Source: a virus. From it: a stretch of DNA of 31,322 nt. Positions within the stretch are counted from its first letter, which is position 1, and every line of letters begins with the position of its first letter. The stretch covers positions 1 through 31,322 of IMG/VR virus record IMGVR_UViG_3300025127_000144. The stretch is one strand, 5' to 3'. A program made the position numbers and the translations under genes. Shown here in pieces: positions 10,733 to 28,099 of the stretch. The notes below the pieces were generated by a model that saw nothing but the letters and a program-made list of their open reading frames with translations, was not told the DNA's origin and made no database searches.

Positions 10733-13330
10733 ATGAGTGTAATCAAAGCAAATGGTGCAGGAGATCAAAGTACAGGTTTCTATAATGGTGTAGCTACTCA
10801 GTCATTACGAAGCAATCAACCAAGCTCAACTCTTTTAAGCAAAACTTTAGGCACACCTACAACAAGAAGAAGGTGGACAATTAGTTTTTGGTTAAAACGA
10901 ACTCAATTTGGTCTTGGAGTAAATGCGACTAACTCCTACAATCCAATAATGGGATGTGACAATAAACTTGTAGCTAGATTTGACATAAACGATAAATTTC
11001 AACTTTATGATTATGATGGTAATTTTGATGTTAATTTAGTAAGCACAATGCGTTTCAGAGATCCTTCAGCTTGGTATAACATCGTTATTGTGACCGATAT
11101 TGATGGTCAAAGTGGTAATAACAGAATGAAATTATATGTAAATGGAGTAAGGCAAGATTGGTCAGGAGATGATCCTGGTGACTATGACCCAAGATGGAAT
11201 GGTAATTTATCACATCAATTGTTAAGTGATGGACAAACAACTGCCAGGTTTAATGGTTACGTCTCAGATGTGACATTTTTAGATGGTCAAGCTATTGGTG
11301 AAACAAATGGATATTTAGATGAGTTTGGAGAGGTAGTGAATGGTGTCTGGATACCTAAAAGCACATCTTCTCTTACATTTGGCAATAATGGATTTAAATT
11401 AGAATTTAAAAAAGATGGAACTGGTACAGGTGCATCAGATACAATAGGTGCTGATACTGCAAATACAAATCATTTTGATTCAAGTGGCATGAATACTGAA
11501 GATTGTAATATGCCAGATAGTCCAGAAAATAATTTTCCAGTATTAAATCCTTTGGTAAATACAAATGGAAGTACTCAATCTGATATTAAAGAGAGTGGAT
11601 TAGAAGTTGTTAAAACTGGACTTTCATATTCTTATTTTCAAGCTACAATGGCAGTAAAAAGTGGGAAATGGTATGCTGAATTCAGACCAACTTCAACTAT
11701 AAATGATCCCATGATTGGAGTTACAAATCAAAATATGAACACATATATGACTGGCGATAGTGTAGACCCTCACCTAACGACAGGAACTGTATGGTATAAT
11801 GGATATTCAGCAACTGCTGGTTATGGGCATTTTGATGGTTCATTTGTAAATGCTTCAACCTTTTCTAGTAATGTTGGTTATATAGCAGATGATATAATTG
11901 GTGTTGCAATAGATATGGATAGCTCCACAAATACTGTAGCATTTTATAAAAATGGTTCGCTTGTCACAACTAAAAATTTAACTTCAAATTTTGACGATCA
12001 TTTAACTTTTGCGTTAAATCTTTATAATACTAATACAATGGGTGTAAATTTTGGTGCTGATAGTACTTTTGGTGGTGATATTTCAAAAGCAACTAATACG
12101 GATGCAAATGGCTTTGGAAATTTTGCTCAAACAGTGCCCACTGGCTATTTAGCATTATGCACAAGTAACTTATCAGAACCAATAATCGGCCCGAATTCAG
12201 ATACACAAGCAAATGACCATTTTGATATATTAACTTGGACTGCAACTGGCTCTCGTCATATAGTACATGATAGAGACGATGGTGCTGGTGTTGGACTTAC
12301 ATTTAAACCTGATATGATATGGGGTAAAAAAAGAGCAGGGCAAGGTGATAATCATGTTATAGTAGATTCTACACGAGGTGTTACAAAAGAAGTATTTCCA
12401 AATACTACCGATGATGAAGAAACAAATTCCAATGGCGTAGAAAGTTTTGATGCACCAACATCGAGTAGTGCAACTGATGGGGGCTTTACACTTGTTGGTT
12501 CAGGTAGTGGTTCAGGCACTTGGAATGGTAACTCTGGTCATACTCATGTAGCTTGGAACTGGAAAGCAAATGGTGGCACAACTTCAAGTGATGGTAATGG
12601 TTCTATAACAAGTACAGTACAAGCAAACACAACTGCTGGATTTAGTATCATAACTTTTACTGGAAATGATACTGATGATGCAACTATAGGACATGGAGTA
12701 AAAGTAAATGGTAGTGCAAAAACACCTGCTTGGATAATTACTAGAAACAGAGATGATGACCAATCTGCTGGTGGTGTTGCCTCACACTGGAGAGCATGGC
12801 ATCAAAATCTAAGTGCAAATTATGTTTTATATTTATCTGGAAGTCTCAATCAGATTGCATCAAATGGACACTCAAATGGATATATTAAAACTGTGGGATC
12901 GACCACTTATTCTACTCATGACTCTAATGTAGACAGTAACGCAGTCAATGGTTCTGGTGATGCTATGATTGCGTATGCATGGGCAGAAGTAGATGGTTAT
13001 TCAAAATTTGGCAAGTATGAGGGCAATAACTCTTCTACAGATGGCGTTTTTGTTTTTCTAGGATTTAGACCCGCATTTGTCATCATAAAAAACATAGATA
13101 CAGATGGTGAAAATTGGCATATGTTTGATAGCACAAGAGCAAAAACTAATGTTATAAAAGCAAGATTGATAGCAGATGATAATACACAAGAAAATACAAA
13201 TGATGAAATTATAGATTTTTTATCAAATGGTTTTAAATTATATGATAATAATGCTGGTTATAATTCAAGTGCAACATTCGTATACATGGCATTTGCCGAG
13301 CAACCGTTTAAGTATGCAAACGCTAGATAG
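10733..13330 (+). CDS. Large tail fibre / host-recognition protein, LamG plus SPRY-like
   Basis: At 865 residues this is the largest gene in the window. Residues about 45-210 form a LamG-type sandwich (RRRWTISFWLKR, LYVNGVRQ, GYVSDVTFLDGQ). Residues about 295-485 are SPRY/concanavalin-like (SGKWYAEFRP, IIGVAIDMDSSTNTVAFYKNG). The C-terminal third holds two copies of another domain: FKPDMIWGKK...DSTRG at 524-549 and FRPAFVIIKN...DSTRA at 778-803. Each copy ends with an AWNW- or YMAFAEQPF-type strand. Such domains bind sugars, so host-surface recognition is likely. Confidence 0.8.
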   Translation: MSVIKANGAGDQSTGFYNGVATQSLRSNQPSSTLLSKTLGTPTTRRRWTISFWLKRTQFGLGVNATNSYNPIMGCDNKLVARFDINDKFQLYDYDGNFDVNLVSTMRFRDPSAWYNIVIVTDIDGQSGNNRMKLYVNGVRQDWSGDDPGDYDPRWNGNLSHQLLSDGQTTARFNGYVSDVTFLDGQAIGETNGYLDEFGEVVNGVWIPKSTSSLTFGNNGFKLEFKKDGTGTGASDTIGADTANTNHFDSSGMNTEDCNMPDSPENNFPVLNPLVNTNGSTQSDIKESGLEVVKTGLSYSYFQATMAVKSGKWYAEFRPTSTINDPMIGVTNQNMNTYMTGDSVDPHLTTGTVWYNGYSATAGYGHFDGSFVNASTFSSNVGYIADDIIGVAIDMDSSTNTVAFYKNGSLVTTKNLTSNFDDHLTFALNLYNTNTMGVNFGADSTFGGDISKATNTDANGFGNFAQTVPTGYLALCTSNLSEPIIGPNSDTQANDHFDILTWTATGSRHIVHDRDDGAGVGLTFKPDMIWGKKRAGQGDNHVIVDSTRGVTKEVFPNTTDDEETNSNGVESFDAPTSSSATDGGFTLVGSGSGSGTWNGNSGHTHVAWNWKANGGTTSSDGNGSITSTVQANTTAGFSIITFTGNDTDDATIGHGVKVNGSAKTPAWIITRNRDDDQSAGGVASHWRAWHQNLSANYVLYLSGSLNQIASNGHSNGYIKTVGSTTYSTHDSNVDSNAVNGSGDAMIAYAWAEVDGYSKFGKYEGNNSSTDGVFVFLGFRPAFVIIKNIDTDGENWHMFDSTRAKTNVIKARLIADDNTQENTNDEIIDFLSNGFKLYDNNAGYNSSATFVYMAFAEQPFKYANAR

Positions 13331-24868: not shown

Positions 24869-25621
24869 ATGGTTGTTGCCGAAATTCTTACAGGAATAGC
24901 ATTAGTACAGAAATCGGTTGACTTCATAAAATCTAATATAAACACAGTTTCGGATATTAAAGATATAGCCAAGCAGATAGATGGCTTTTTTGAAGGCGAG
25001 GCACAAATGAATAAGCGTCAAGGCAAAGGTCTTGGCATAAAAGAACAGTTTGGCATCGAATCAACTGCATCAGATTTTATAGATAGAAAACTACTTGAGG
25101 AGAGTAGAACCGAGCTAAAAAATATAATTAATCTCCGCTTCGGCCCGACTGCCTGGGATCAGATTCTTGCAGAAAGAGCTAACAGAATTAACGAGGCTAA
25201 AGAACAAGCTAGACTACAAAAGATAGAGGCTAAACAAAAACAAAAAGATTTGATAGATGCCCTTCAGACTATGGGTATTGTTTTTTGTGTACTTGCAGTC
25301 TTAGGTATATGTATTGTTTTAGCAATAAAAGCATACGCAGATGGCAAGATGTATAACGCACCTAAAGACTACACCTATAAGCAAAAAGTGTGGCAAGGTA
25401 AAATCAAAGAAAAAAAATATACAACTTGTAGATTAAAAAAAAGGCTAACATCCAAACATACAAATAAAAAAGCGTGTATTTATGAGGGCAATAATAGAAC
25501 ATATACGATGATGATTGAAACTTGGTGTCCTAAAAAATATAAATGTGAGATACAAAAACTAAGTTCAGATATGCCAAATATAGATCAAGTAATGGAAAGT
25601 TTGAGAAGTATATCTAAATAA
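24869..25621 (+). CDS. Membrane protein with cytoplasmic coiled coil and Cys-rich outer domain
   Basis: The N-terminal half is helical. LRFGPTAWDQILAERANRIN at 89-108 is a recognisable conserved block of marine-phage proteins of this layout. A charged helix (AKEQARLQKIEAKQKQ) leads to one membrane segment at about 134-156. The C-terminal domain has several Cys (CRLKKR, KKACIYEG, ETWCPKKYKCEI), suggesting disulphides outside the inner membrane. It is the last + strand gene. It could help DNA entry or superinfection control, but that is unsupported. Confidence 0.7.
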   Translation: MVVAEILTGIALVQKSVDFIKSNINTVSDIKDIAKQIDGFFEGEAQMNKRQGKGLGIKEQFGIESTASDFIDRKLLEESRTELKNIINLRFGPTAWDQILAERANRINEAKEQARLQKIEAKQKQKDLIDALQTMGIVFCVLAVLGICIVLAIKAYADGKMYNAPKDYTYKQKVWQGKIKEKKYTTCRLKKRLTSKHTNKKACIYEGNNRTYTMMIETWCPKKYKCEIQKLSSDMPNIDQVMESLRSISK

Positions 25622-26759
25622 AAGACATTTGACCATCATTGGGTCTGTTATATTTAGGATCATATGATTTATTATTGATACCTATATATTCATGAGAATA
25701 ACATATTCTATCTCTAGCTAAAGGTATAAGGCGTTTTTTATGATCATGTTTATCGCTACTTCTATCTTTTAGGTTGCTGACTGTAGCTCTCCACAGAGGC
25801 GATTTTTCTCTATATTCACCCATTCTTATATGTGATGTTTTAGAATAATATCTTACGTTTTGCTCTAACATAATCTCTCCAACTGCATCAGATATCCTAG
25901 TGCCAATACCTAAACCTTGAAAGTCAGGTAATACTACAGTCCTAGCCTCTCTCCATTTAAGCCTTGTGTCACCATCATATAATGGTGGTGTCCATCCAGG
26001 AAGCGATATAGTTGAAGAAAACCCAACAATTCTGTCACCCCATAAAGCCAAGTATACTTGTACAGACGATGGTAACTCTTCAGTTAAATAATGATGCTTT
26101 TTAAATAATTCCCAATATTTTTTTTGTCCTTTGACAATTCTAATTTCAATGGGTTGCCGAACTAACCCCCTTGATGCAAACTGCCTCACATCTGTATTGA
26201 AAACCCAATCAGGTTGTAACCATTCTAAAATATCATCATGACAAGTAGCCAAAACTATATTTTTTAATTTTTTACGTTTTACATATTTATATAAAGATAA
26301 TGAGCAAGATTTAGCTACATCTCTATTAACAACTGATGTAAACTCATCTATTACAATATTACTTCCTAATCGTCTAGCTAGATCACATCTAAAGCCTTCA
26401 CCATTAGATAAAACATTTCTAGGCTTTGCCCAAGTAGGCACTGTATTCAAACCAACTGCACCTAATCTTTCTATTGCATCTTCTACAGAATCAAAGTGTG
26501 AGGCTATGGTTTTATTATAATTCCAAACTAACTCTTGCTCTTCACCAAACTGTTTGAGCATAGATGATTTACCACTACCACTAGACCCATATATAACGCC
26601 AATAGAAAAGTCATTTTGTATTTTAGGAAAGTGTGGCACTGTAAATTCAGTTTTACCATCAAATTTGTAATCAAAGTTTTTGAATATTTCTTTATCAATA
26701 TCTGTTAGTTCAACTGTACTAGTCAAAACTGTATCTTGAAAATCAAATAAATCTCGCAT
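25614..26759 (-). CDS. ABC-type ATPase fused to a GNAT domain (Mom-like)
   Basis: The N-terminal half carries a Walker A loop GSSGSGKSS at 58-66, an ABC-like signature LSNGEGF at 117-123, Walker B NIVIDE at 134-139 and a switch His in ATCHDD at 171-176. Residues about 205-330 form a GNAT domain: YWELFKKHHYL, VGFSSTISLPG, VVLPDFQGLGIG at 275-286, and SPLWRATVSNL at 320-330. In phages this arrangement resembles Mu Mom-type acyltransferases, which alter adenine in phage DNA to block restriction. Whether this protein modifies DNA is inferred. Start: AGGAGAATA before ATG. An upstream terminator may limit expression. Confidence 0.8.
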   Translation of the reverse strand: MRDLFDFQDTVLTSTVELTDIDKEIFKNFDYKFDGKTEFTVPHFPKIQNDFSIGVIYGSSGSGKSSMLKQFGEEQELVWNYNKTIASHFDSVEDAIERLGAVGLNTVPTWAKPRNVLSNGEGFRCDLARRLGSNIVIDEFTSVVNRDVAKSCSLSLYKYVKRKKLKNIVLATCHDDILEWLQPDWVFNTDVRQFASRGLVRQPIEIRIVKGQKKYWELFKKHHYLTEELPSSVQVYLALWGDRIVGFSSTISLPGWTPPLYDGDTRLKWREARTVVLPDFQGLGIGTRISDAVGEIMLEQNVRYYSKTSHIRMGEYREKSPLWRATVSNLKDRSSDKHDHKKRLIPLARDRICYSHEYIGINNKSYDPKYNRPNDGQMSFI

Positions 26760-26801: not shown

Positions 26802-27716
26802 TTATGCTACTTCTAGCTCTTTCCATTTCTTACTATTAATCATACTTCTTACATCATTTTGCCTACGTTGCTGAACTATATGATTATTAGTGCTATTAGC
26901 CTTTACATCACCAAGATGAGTTGACCATGCAGTTGCAGACTGATATGCACACCATAGAGAGCCTTTAGCACCATTTCTGCCATAATCACCCCTTCCATGT
27001 ATTTGAGCTACCTCTGCGTCATATAGACCCATTAAATGATATAGTTGCTTTTTATTAGTGTCTGACTGACCACTAGCAACCTTAATCTCATTTGCTTGGC
27101 TTTTAGCTATAGTAGATTTGAAAAGATCAATAACTTGCTGATCTTCTACTTTAGTATCCCACCACTTTTGGAAGTTTTTAGTTTCATCAGTTATAGCAGT
27201 AACTGCATTCTTAATCTTTTCATTAGACGCATCTACGTTAAAATGAGTAGTATGTCTGTTGGCAGTATAGGCGATCTTTTGACCACTAACCAAAGTATTA
27301 AAACATACTTGATTCATCCAACCAAAGAATGACTGAAACTTCCATTTGGCGTTGTAACTATTTCTAGCTACAAATTTAAGATATAAATTATGGTTACCAA
27401 CCTCTGCATGGTGTGCTGGAAGTAACAATTCCATCTTAGCCATAGCACCATTTTCGTAGGTATTGATGGTAATTTCATGATTTGAGAAATCTAGTCCACC
27501 ACTTTTCATAGCCTCAATAGCTCCACCAAATGCATCTACATGATGTATTGGCTTATACCTTGATCCTACTATACCCAATGGATCGCCATCTTGAGCACCC
27601 CACTGATCTAAGCGAACTACTTTTCTACCCATGTGTGAAGGGATACCTTGAATATCCCTCACATCTATTTCAAATGATACGTCTTGTAACGCTTCTTGTA
27701 ATTTTGTATCTAACAT
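26802..27716 (-). CDS. DUF932 phage/plasmid-like protein
   Basis: The 304-residue protein matches the DUF932 (phage/plasmid-like protein) family. VGSRYKPIHHVDAFGGAIEA, the ENGAMAKMELLLP region, and NSYNAKWKFQSFFGWMNQVCFNT are the conserved blocks. Members are common on plasmids and phages, but their biochemical role is unknown. The start shares a base with the previous stop (TAATG), and GGGAG lies upstream. It forms a unit with the small gene before it, led by the promoter at 28.1 kb. Confidence 0.82.
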   Translation of the reverse strand: MLDTKLQEALQDVSFEIDVRDIQGIPSHMGRKVVRLDQWGAQDGDPLGIVGSRYKPIHHVDAFGGAIEAMKSGGLDFSNHEITINTYENGAMAKMELLLPAHHAEVGNHNLYLKFVARNSYNAKWKFQSFFGWMNQVCFNTLVSGQKIAYTANRHTTHFNVDASNEKIKNAVTAITDETKNFQKWWDTKVEDQQVIDLFKSTIAKSQANEIKVASGQSDTNKKQLYHLMGLYDAEVAQIHGRGDYGRNGAKGSLWCAYQSATAWSTHLGDVKANSTNNHIVQQRRQNDVRSMINSKKWKELEVA

Positions 27717-28099
27717 TATGCCACTCCCGCTAGTTTAAATAATTTATTGTGCTTGAAACCTATGTTGAACTCAAAAGCTAGTTGATCGCCACCATAGTAC
27801 TTATCGTGCTCTAAACCATCTGCCTCAAGTATCCATCTGATTGCAGTTCTGTAGTTTTTAGCACCTAGCTTACAAGTGTCTTTTATTCTCTTAGCTAGAT
27901 TAGATACATTGTCAGCTTTAATTCTAGCTTCTTCTGCATCGTTCTTGACCATATCGTCAATAAGGTCATCCCAAATTTTTTGTTTGGCATCGTCTGTGCC
28001 ACAGTTCCAATGAAACCAAAAAGAGTTAGAAGGTCTATGACCCCAAGCATCTTTATGTAAATCTGAAACTGTTTCATCGCAAAAAGTATATTTAGTCAT
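27716..28099 (-). CDS. Conserved phage protein of unknown function, 127 aa
   Basis: This is the first gene of the promoter-28.1 kb unit. It starts YTFCDETVSDLHKDAWGHRP. A charged helical middle (DDLIDDMVKNDAEEARIKAD) is followed by NYRTAIRWILEADG and a C-terminus with YYGGDQLAFEF. I have seen similar small proteins in many phages, without a function. GGAGAAATAA precedes the ATG within the shared ACGA-AACAAAA leader. Its stop overlaps the DUF932 start. Confidence 0.75.
   Translation of the reverse strand: MTKYTFCDETVSDLHKDAWGHRPSNSFWFHWNCGTDDAKQKIWDDLIDDMVKNDAEEARIKADNVSNLAKRIKDTCKLGAKNYRTAIRWILEADGLEHDKYYGGDQLAFEFNIGFKHNKLFKLAGVA

Follow-up and report, generated by a model that had tools for sequence, protein, structure and literature searches.

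Does the fusion of an ABC-type ATPase to a GNAT domain, encoded on a 31-kb fragment of a marine phage, modify DNA, and does it do so as a relative of phage Mu Mom? Throughout, the window denotes this whole stretch of 31,322 nucleotides. The first-pass annotation described the gene as an ABC ATPase joined to a Mom-like GNAT domain and proposed a role in DNA modification or anti-restriction. Here we address the integrity of the fusion, its family, its relationship to Mom, and what its gene neighbourhoods suggest about its substrate.

The fusion gene is intact and both halves are conserved

The ABC-ATPase-GNAT fusion gene lies at 25614..26759 on the minus strand and encodes 381 amino acids from an ATG start; its coordinates, strand and frame are exact, and the open reading frame is confirmed as real and intact. 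The ABC ATPase half (residues about 1-200; 26160..26759, minus strand) carries a Walker A motif (GSSGSGKS, 58-65), a signature (LSNGE, 117-121), a Walker B motif with D138/E139 and an H-switch (H174). The GNAT half (residues about 201-376; 25632..26159, minus strand) carries HHYL (222-225), R273, VLPDFQGLGIG (276-286, with QGLGIG at 281-286), H310 and W323. Inspection of an alignment of 85 diverse relatives, most at least 30% identical, reveals that G63, L117, G120, R124, C173 and P278 are invariant (85/85), while K64, D138, E139, H174, H223, Y224, Q281 and W323 are present in 84 of the 85. Further conserved segments comprise G58..K64, L117-S-x-G120, C173-H174-x-D176 and H223-Y224-L225, together with R273, P278, Q281-G282-x-G284-x-G286, H310 and W323 in the GNAT half. 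The catalytic-type residues of the GNAT half are as strongly conserved as the Walker motifs, and conservation of the motifs over these relatives is far beyond chance. The earlier claim that both halves retain their key motifs is borne out in full, as Walker A, signature, Walker B, switch His and QGLGIG were all found and are conserved.

Profile and structural comparisons agree with this division. PF00583 matches the protein above the Pfam cut-off (23.0 versus 20.7 bits); PF00005 falls below threshold in the window protein and exceeds the cut-off in two relatives (L102, L315). PADLOC returned only weak P-loop matches, the best being mad3 at 1.1e-4 over 16 residues. AlphaFold2, supplied with the window and locus sequences only, produced a confident two-domain model (pLDDT 91.0, pTM 0.85), in which residues 5-198 match the ABC protein MJ0796 (VIA-align Z 13.5, 168 residues, rmsd 3.4) and residues 202-361 match the GNAT 1y9k (VIA-align Z 13.6, 138 residues, rmsd 3.9). 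When modelled alone (pLDDT 90.8), the GNAT half matches the canonical GNAT 1y9k (Z 13.1) as well as RimI, Ard1 and NAA50 at Z 11.5-13. The first half is assigned to the ABC ATPases on its Walker A, signature, Walker B with catalytic Glu, H-switch and ABC fold, and the second to the GNAT superfamily on its PF00583 match, GNAT fold and retained QGLGIG.

The protein belongs to a large and diverse phage family

The window protein matches phrog_11143 from end to end (3.7e-105, residues 15-363 onto profile positions 8-353 of 357), a family annotated in PHROG as being of unknown function. By tblastn, 51 phage records match the protein, with relatives in Aeromonas PX29 (47%), Tenacibaculum pT24 (39.5% over 77% of the query), Leptospira LE3, Gordonia, Streptococcus, Lactococcus P335 and Pseudomonas Komp_PAO1_1. 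Family scans returned 103 genome loci, 80 of which were kept, and at least 593 viral stretches. Together, the tblastn and scan counts indicate that phrog_11143 is a large, diverse phage family with many prophage members, and the ABC-GNAT fusion is retained across very distant phages.

Iyer et al. 2021 (PMC7824862), citing their own 2013 work, predicted that ABC-ATPase-coupled GNATs acylate a DNA base, and named phage pT24 as a carrier. By its sequence profile, the window protein is a member of this phrog_11143/Iyer ABC-GNAT family and shares with the pT24 protein its domain order and predicted role. A DNA-modification role for ABC-GNAT is, in other words, an already published idea and not new here. 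Unlike its pT24 counterpart, the window gene encodes one uninterrupted protein, and it comes from a marine phage of small size, whereas pT24 is a jumbo phage. One frame spans both halves in pT24 (L032:5809-6981), with an in-frame TGA falling within the GNAT domain, and the annotation divides it into two genes. COG2401, described as an 'ABC-type ATPase fused to a predicted acetyltransferase domain', presumably has the same architecture, a likeness drawn by description only. Our literature search found no paper on COG2401, on the fused architecture or on the com/formyltransferase operon described below.

The GNAT half resembles Mom only in class and in one motif

The first-pass annotation regarded HHYL, VLPDFQGLGIG and SPLWR as having comparable segments in Mu Mom. 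The resemblance holds for the general GNAT class and for one motif: like Mu Mom, the window protein is a phage enzyme of the GNAT superfamily with an HY motif, and in sister phages a Mom gene sits next to ABC-GNAT. It does not hold by sequence profile or by fold ranking. PF25680 has no match in the window protein (Pfam, E up to 1) or in any frame of the window, and hhalign comparison of the GNAT half with 28 Mom sequences was not significant (probability 0.5-1%, P 0.05-0.11). The sole stretch that hhalign aligned pairs KHHYL...GDRIVGF with KHYSRR...GRDLVGV of Mom, the HY being common to both. Mom contains no QGLGIG-like and no SPLWR-like segment, such that of the proposed correspondences only the HY segment stands. 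We treat this HY as a possible lead, not as a sign of membership.

Fold comparison gives a similar picture. Among the best 50 matches listed, the closest folds of the GNAT half are protein or small-molecule acetyltransferases of the RimI/Ard1 type, and the Mom structure 8bv8 is absent from the best 50 Foldseek and VIA-align matches and may still match lower down the list. The structural check proposed at the outset thus goes against a likeness to Mom; it does not decide the substrate, since the substrate of a GNAT is not predictable from fold rank. Set beside Mu Mom (PF25680, 8bv8), the window protein is distinguished by the lack of a profile relation, a fused ATPase, a canonical QGLGIG and best folds of the RimI/Ard1 type. 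It is therefore highly improbable that the protein belongs to the Mu Mom family proper and produces N6-carbamoylmethyladenine. The HY motif at a comparable position and the true Mom genes adjoining it in sister phages favour membership; the PF25680 and hhalign results, the acyl-CoA motif with no counterpart in the Mom alignment, and the fold ranking among the 50 matches listed argue against it, and on the PF25680 search and hhalign profile comparison we rejected it.

Neighbouring genes in the window and its clade

A gene for a 304-aa DUF932 protein (26802..27716, minus strand; PF06067 2.1e-13, phrog_1221) lies 42 nt upstream of ABC-GNAT on the same strand. The same gene run includes a 127-aa protein of unknown function (27716..28099, minus strand; phrog_21968), which occupies position U2 in most of the clade. 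DUF932 had been taken as a partner of the fusion gene. Its position directly upstream is correct and recurs in 16 other contigs of the window's clade, but a general partnership is unsupported outside that clade and one divergent lineage (L141), in which a DUF932-like protein occupies the same upstream position by inspection. The link is mostly lineage-specific. In having DUF932 upstream in place of a ParB-like protein, the window differs from the ABC-GNAT loci of the type described by Iyer et al.; neither a ParB-like protein nor its C-terminal domain has a match in the window.

The slot directly downstream of ABC-GNAT varies within the clade. It is empty in the window, where the next gene is convergent with an 8-nt overlap. 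A true Mom gene lies 21 nt downstream of ABC-GNAT in eight sister contigs (PF25680 5.4e-38; phrog_1384 6.9e-59), which look near-identical, probably represent one lineage and so count about once. Six other sister contigs hold in the same slot a second, stand-alone GNAT without the ATPase, and this paralogue (L012:6146-6739; L014:6146-6740) is about 58% identical to the GNAT half of the window protein. An intron was considered as the cause of a longer match in L014 and L015 and rejected, as Rfam gave no match and the extra DNA is the second stand-alone GNAT.

ParB-like, Com and formyltransferase neighbours in the wider family

A ParB-like protein or its C-terminal domain is found near ABC-GNAT in 75 of the 80 genome loci, usually directly upstream. 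In 51 of 190 loci, the same-strand gene directly upstream belongs to one cluster of ParB-like proteins, mostly about 188 aa in length, which occurs mainly in Planctomycetes and actinobacterial prophages, often with terminase genes next. The small C-terminal domain is a separate ORF of 51-66 aa in several loci, Mu-like ones included. The best PHROG matches of the cluster include phrog_498, a ParB-DNA methyltransferase family; the ParB-like partner of ABC-GNAT is thus related to the ParB part that is fused to phage DNA methyltransferases. In those proteins the catalytic module is a methyltransferase, and the window has no detectable ParB. A ParB-like gene beside ABC-GNAT is a common prophage context, neither defining nor universal. 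Directly upstream of ABC-GNAT, two viral loci (L152, L154) carry an N6_N4 methyltransferase protein and a separate lineage (L128) carries Mom; in two further loci (L174, L176) Mom lies within 2 kb. More generally, the family lies in replication/modification or packaging regions of phage genomes, with replication and recombination genes nearby in virulent phages and terminase nearby in prophages. In the census of genes around ABC-GNAT, none for RNA modification were noted.

The gene order com, ABC-GNAT, formyltransferase is present in 16 loci, mostly Mu-like prophages (L102, L079, L104, L114, L035 and 11 others) and with phage Komp_PAO1_1 included; the small ParB C-terminal domain often sits between com and ABC-GNAT. 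In phage Mu, com lies upstream of mom, and the com model gave 44 matches across 80 Mom loci, those listed being just upstream of Mom. As a control, 299 genomes from the genus of G017 (Pseudomonas) were searched for com (PF10122), which 88 of them carry, and 30 com loci (L291-L320) were sampled. The gene next to com was ABC-GNAT in one, a DNA methyltransferase in three and Mom in none, and the remaining loci had lectin-like (B_lectin-type), secreted, baseplate or unclassified genes in this position. This spread of neighbours suggests that Com regulates late cargo genes in general. The lectin-like and other cargo weakens any proof of DNA modification drawn from linkage to com. What the link shows after this control is only that ABC-GNAT is found in the regulated cargo slot that mom also uses.

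The halves are encoded in different frames in most Firmicutes phage loci examined

Among nine Firmicutes phage loci examined, seven (L031, L033, L272, L274, L276, L277 and L278) have the GNAT frame at -1 relative to the ABC frame, with an ABC/GNAT overlap of roughly 100 nt. The hosts are Streptococcus, Lactococcus, Oenococcus and Thomasclavelia. The -1 GNAT frames that were inspected mostly lack a usual start codon before the conserved part, and within the overlap the -1 peptide is more conserved than the 0 frame in 10 of 10 pairs from five phages. These patterns suggest that programmed -1 frameshifting joins the ABC and GNAT halves in Firmicutes phages. Relative to the literature searched, outside of which the 2013 Iyer source lies, no account was found of the frameshift, the Mom/GNAT slot or the com-formyltransferase loci, and these appear to be new.

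A probable DNA acyltransferase and its alternatives

On balance, we favour an ATP-dependent acyltransferase as the gene product. Its most likely target is an exocyclic amine of a phage DNA base, at adenine N6 or cytosine N4, and the acyl group would protect the DNA from host nucleases or mark it. DNA modification is the best-supported role, and a partly supported one, based on the published prediction for the same family, exemplified by pT24, and on gene context. That context consists of Mom, ParB-like and DNA methyltransferase neighbours and of com before and formyltransferase after ABC-GNAT in the same 16 loci, and it lends the DNA-marking idea moderate support. A further argument comes from TmcA, a precedent for an NTPase and a GNAT acting together on a base amine. 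Against DNA acylation stand the predicted folds, closest to protein and small-molecule acetyltransferases, as well as a Com that is not specific to DNA modification, the near-identity of the eight Mom-bearing sister contigs and the finding of neither ParB nor Mom in the window, itself a fragment of 31 kb.

In such a mechanism, the GNAT half would bind acyl-CoA as donor, and the ABC half would dimerise on ATP, holding or opening DNA, such that DNA is the substrate and its engagement is ATP-driven. The ATPase half might also serve as the DNA scanner that the first-pass annotation envisaged. Positioning of the enzyme on DNA may, in prophages, be aided by the ParB-like partner or by the small C-terminal domain of that protein, and the formyltransferase next to ABC-GNAT in Mu-like prophages may act as a second step, modifying the added group further. 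As the sister contigs of the clade show, either Mom or a second GNAT can be added directly downstream. A more tentative extension, which we hold to be rather doubtful, is that ABC-GNAT and its partners (the ParB-like protein or its C-terminal domain, with the formyltransferase in Mu-like prophages) use ATP to drive the formation of a so far unseen acylated DNA base, possibly a formyl-aminoacylated one, as an alternative to Mom that is swapped or stacked with it.

The main rival is a protein acetyltransferase for host takeover, directed at RNA polymerase, a ribosomal protein or a defence protein of the host; the ABC half would then either regulate the enzyme or bind ribosomes or nucleoprotein. 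We consider this unlikely. RimI, Ard1, NAA50 and other protein acetyltransferases are indeed the best folds, but fold rank does not predict the substrate of a GNAT; com-linked genes are often not DNA modifiers, yet the recurrent neighbours of ABC-GNAT are ParB-like proteins, DNA methyltransferases, Mom, terminase and replication genes. Acetylation of host RNA polymerase by phage GNATs is discussed in PMC7824862. Less likely again is an RNA-base acyltransferase akin to TmcA/NAT10, the tRNA/rRNA cytidine acetyltransferase, that would acetylate tRNA or rRNA cytidine in infection. TmcA (2zpa) appears at Foldseek rank 19 as a weak match (E 2.4e-5, TM about 0.3). Like the window protein, TmcA/NAT10 combines an NTPase and a GNAT in a single chain, and it uses ATP and acetyl-CoA to modify a base amine, demonstrating that such a fusion can do so. 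Its substrate is RNA, however, and its NTPase is helicase-like, whereas that of the window protein is of the ABC type by motifs and fold; the census of neighbours, in which no genes for RNA modification were noted, also argues against this explanation. Slightly less probable still is a role in DNA repair, recombination or packaging that falls to the ABC ATPase, the GNAT half being a regulatory part or a vestige. Such a role would suit the replication and recombination neighbours in virulent phages and the terminase in prophages, but not GNAT catalytic-type residues conserved to the degree of the Walker motifs, nor the retention of stand-alone GNAT duplicates.

If DNA acylation is the correct reading, phages carry a widespread family of DNA-modification enzymes, in at least 593 viral stretches, in which a motor domain is fused to the transferase. 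Cultured carriers (Aeromonas PX29, Pseudomonas Komp_PAO1_1, Lactococcus P335 and Leptospira LE3) would make the DNA chemistry directly readable by mass spectrometry, and new DNA chemistries bear on restriction evasion and on sequencing artefacts.

Elsewhere in the window, positions 10733-13330 encode an 865-aa protein with a DUF7483 match (2.3e-81) and a weak SPRY match, possibly a tail or receptor-binding protein.
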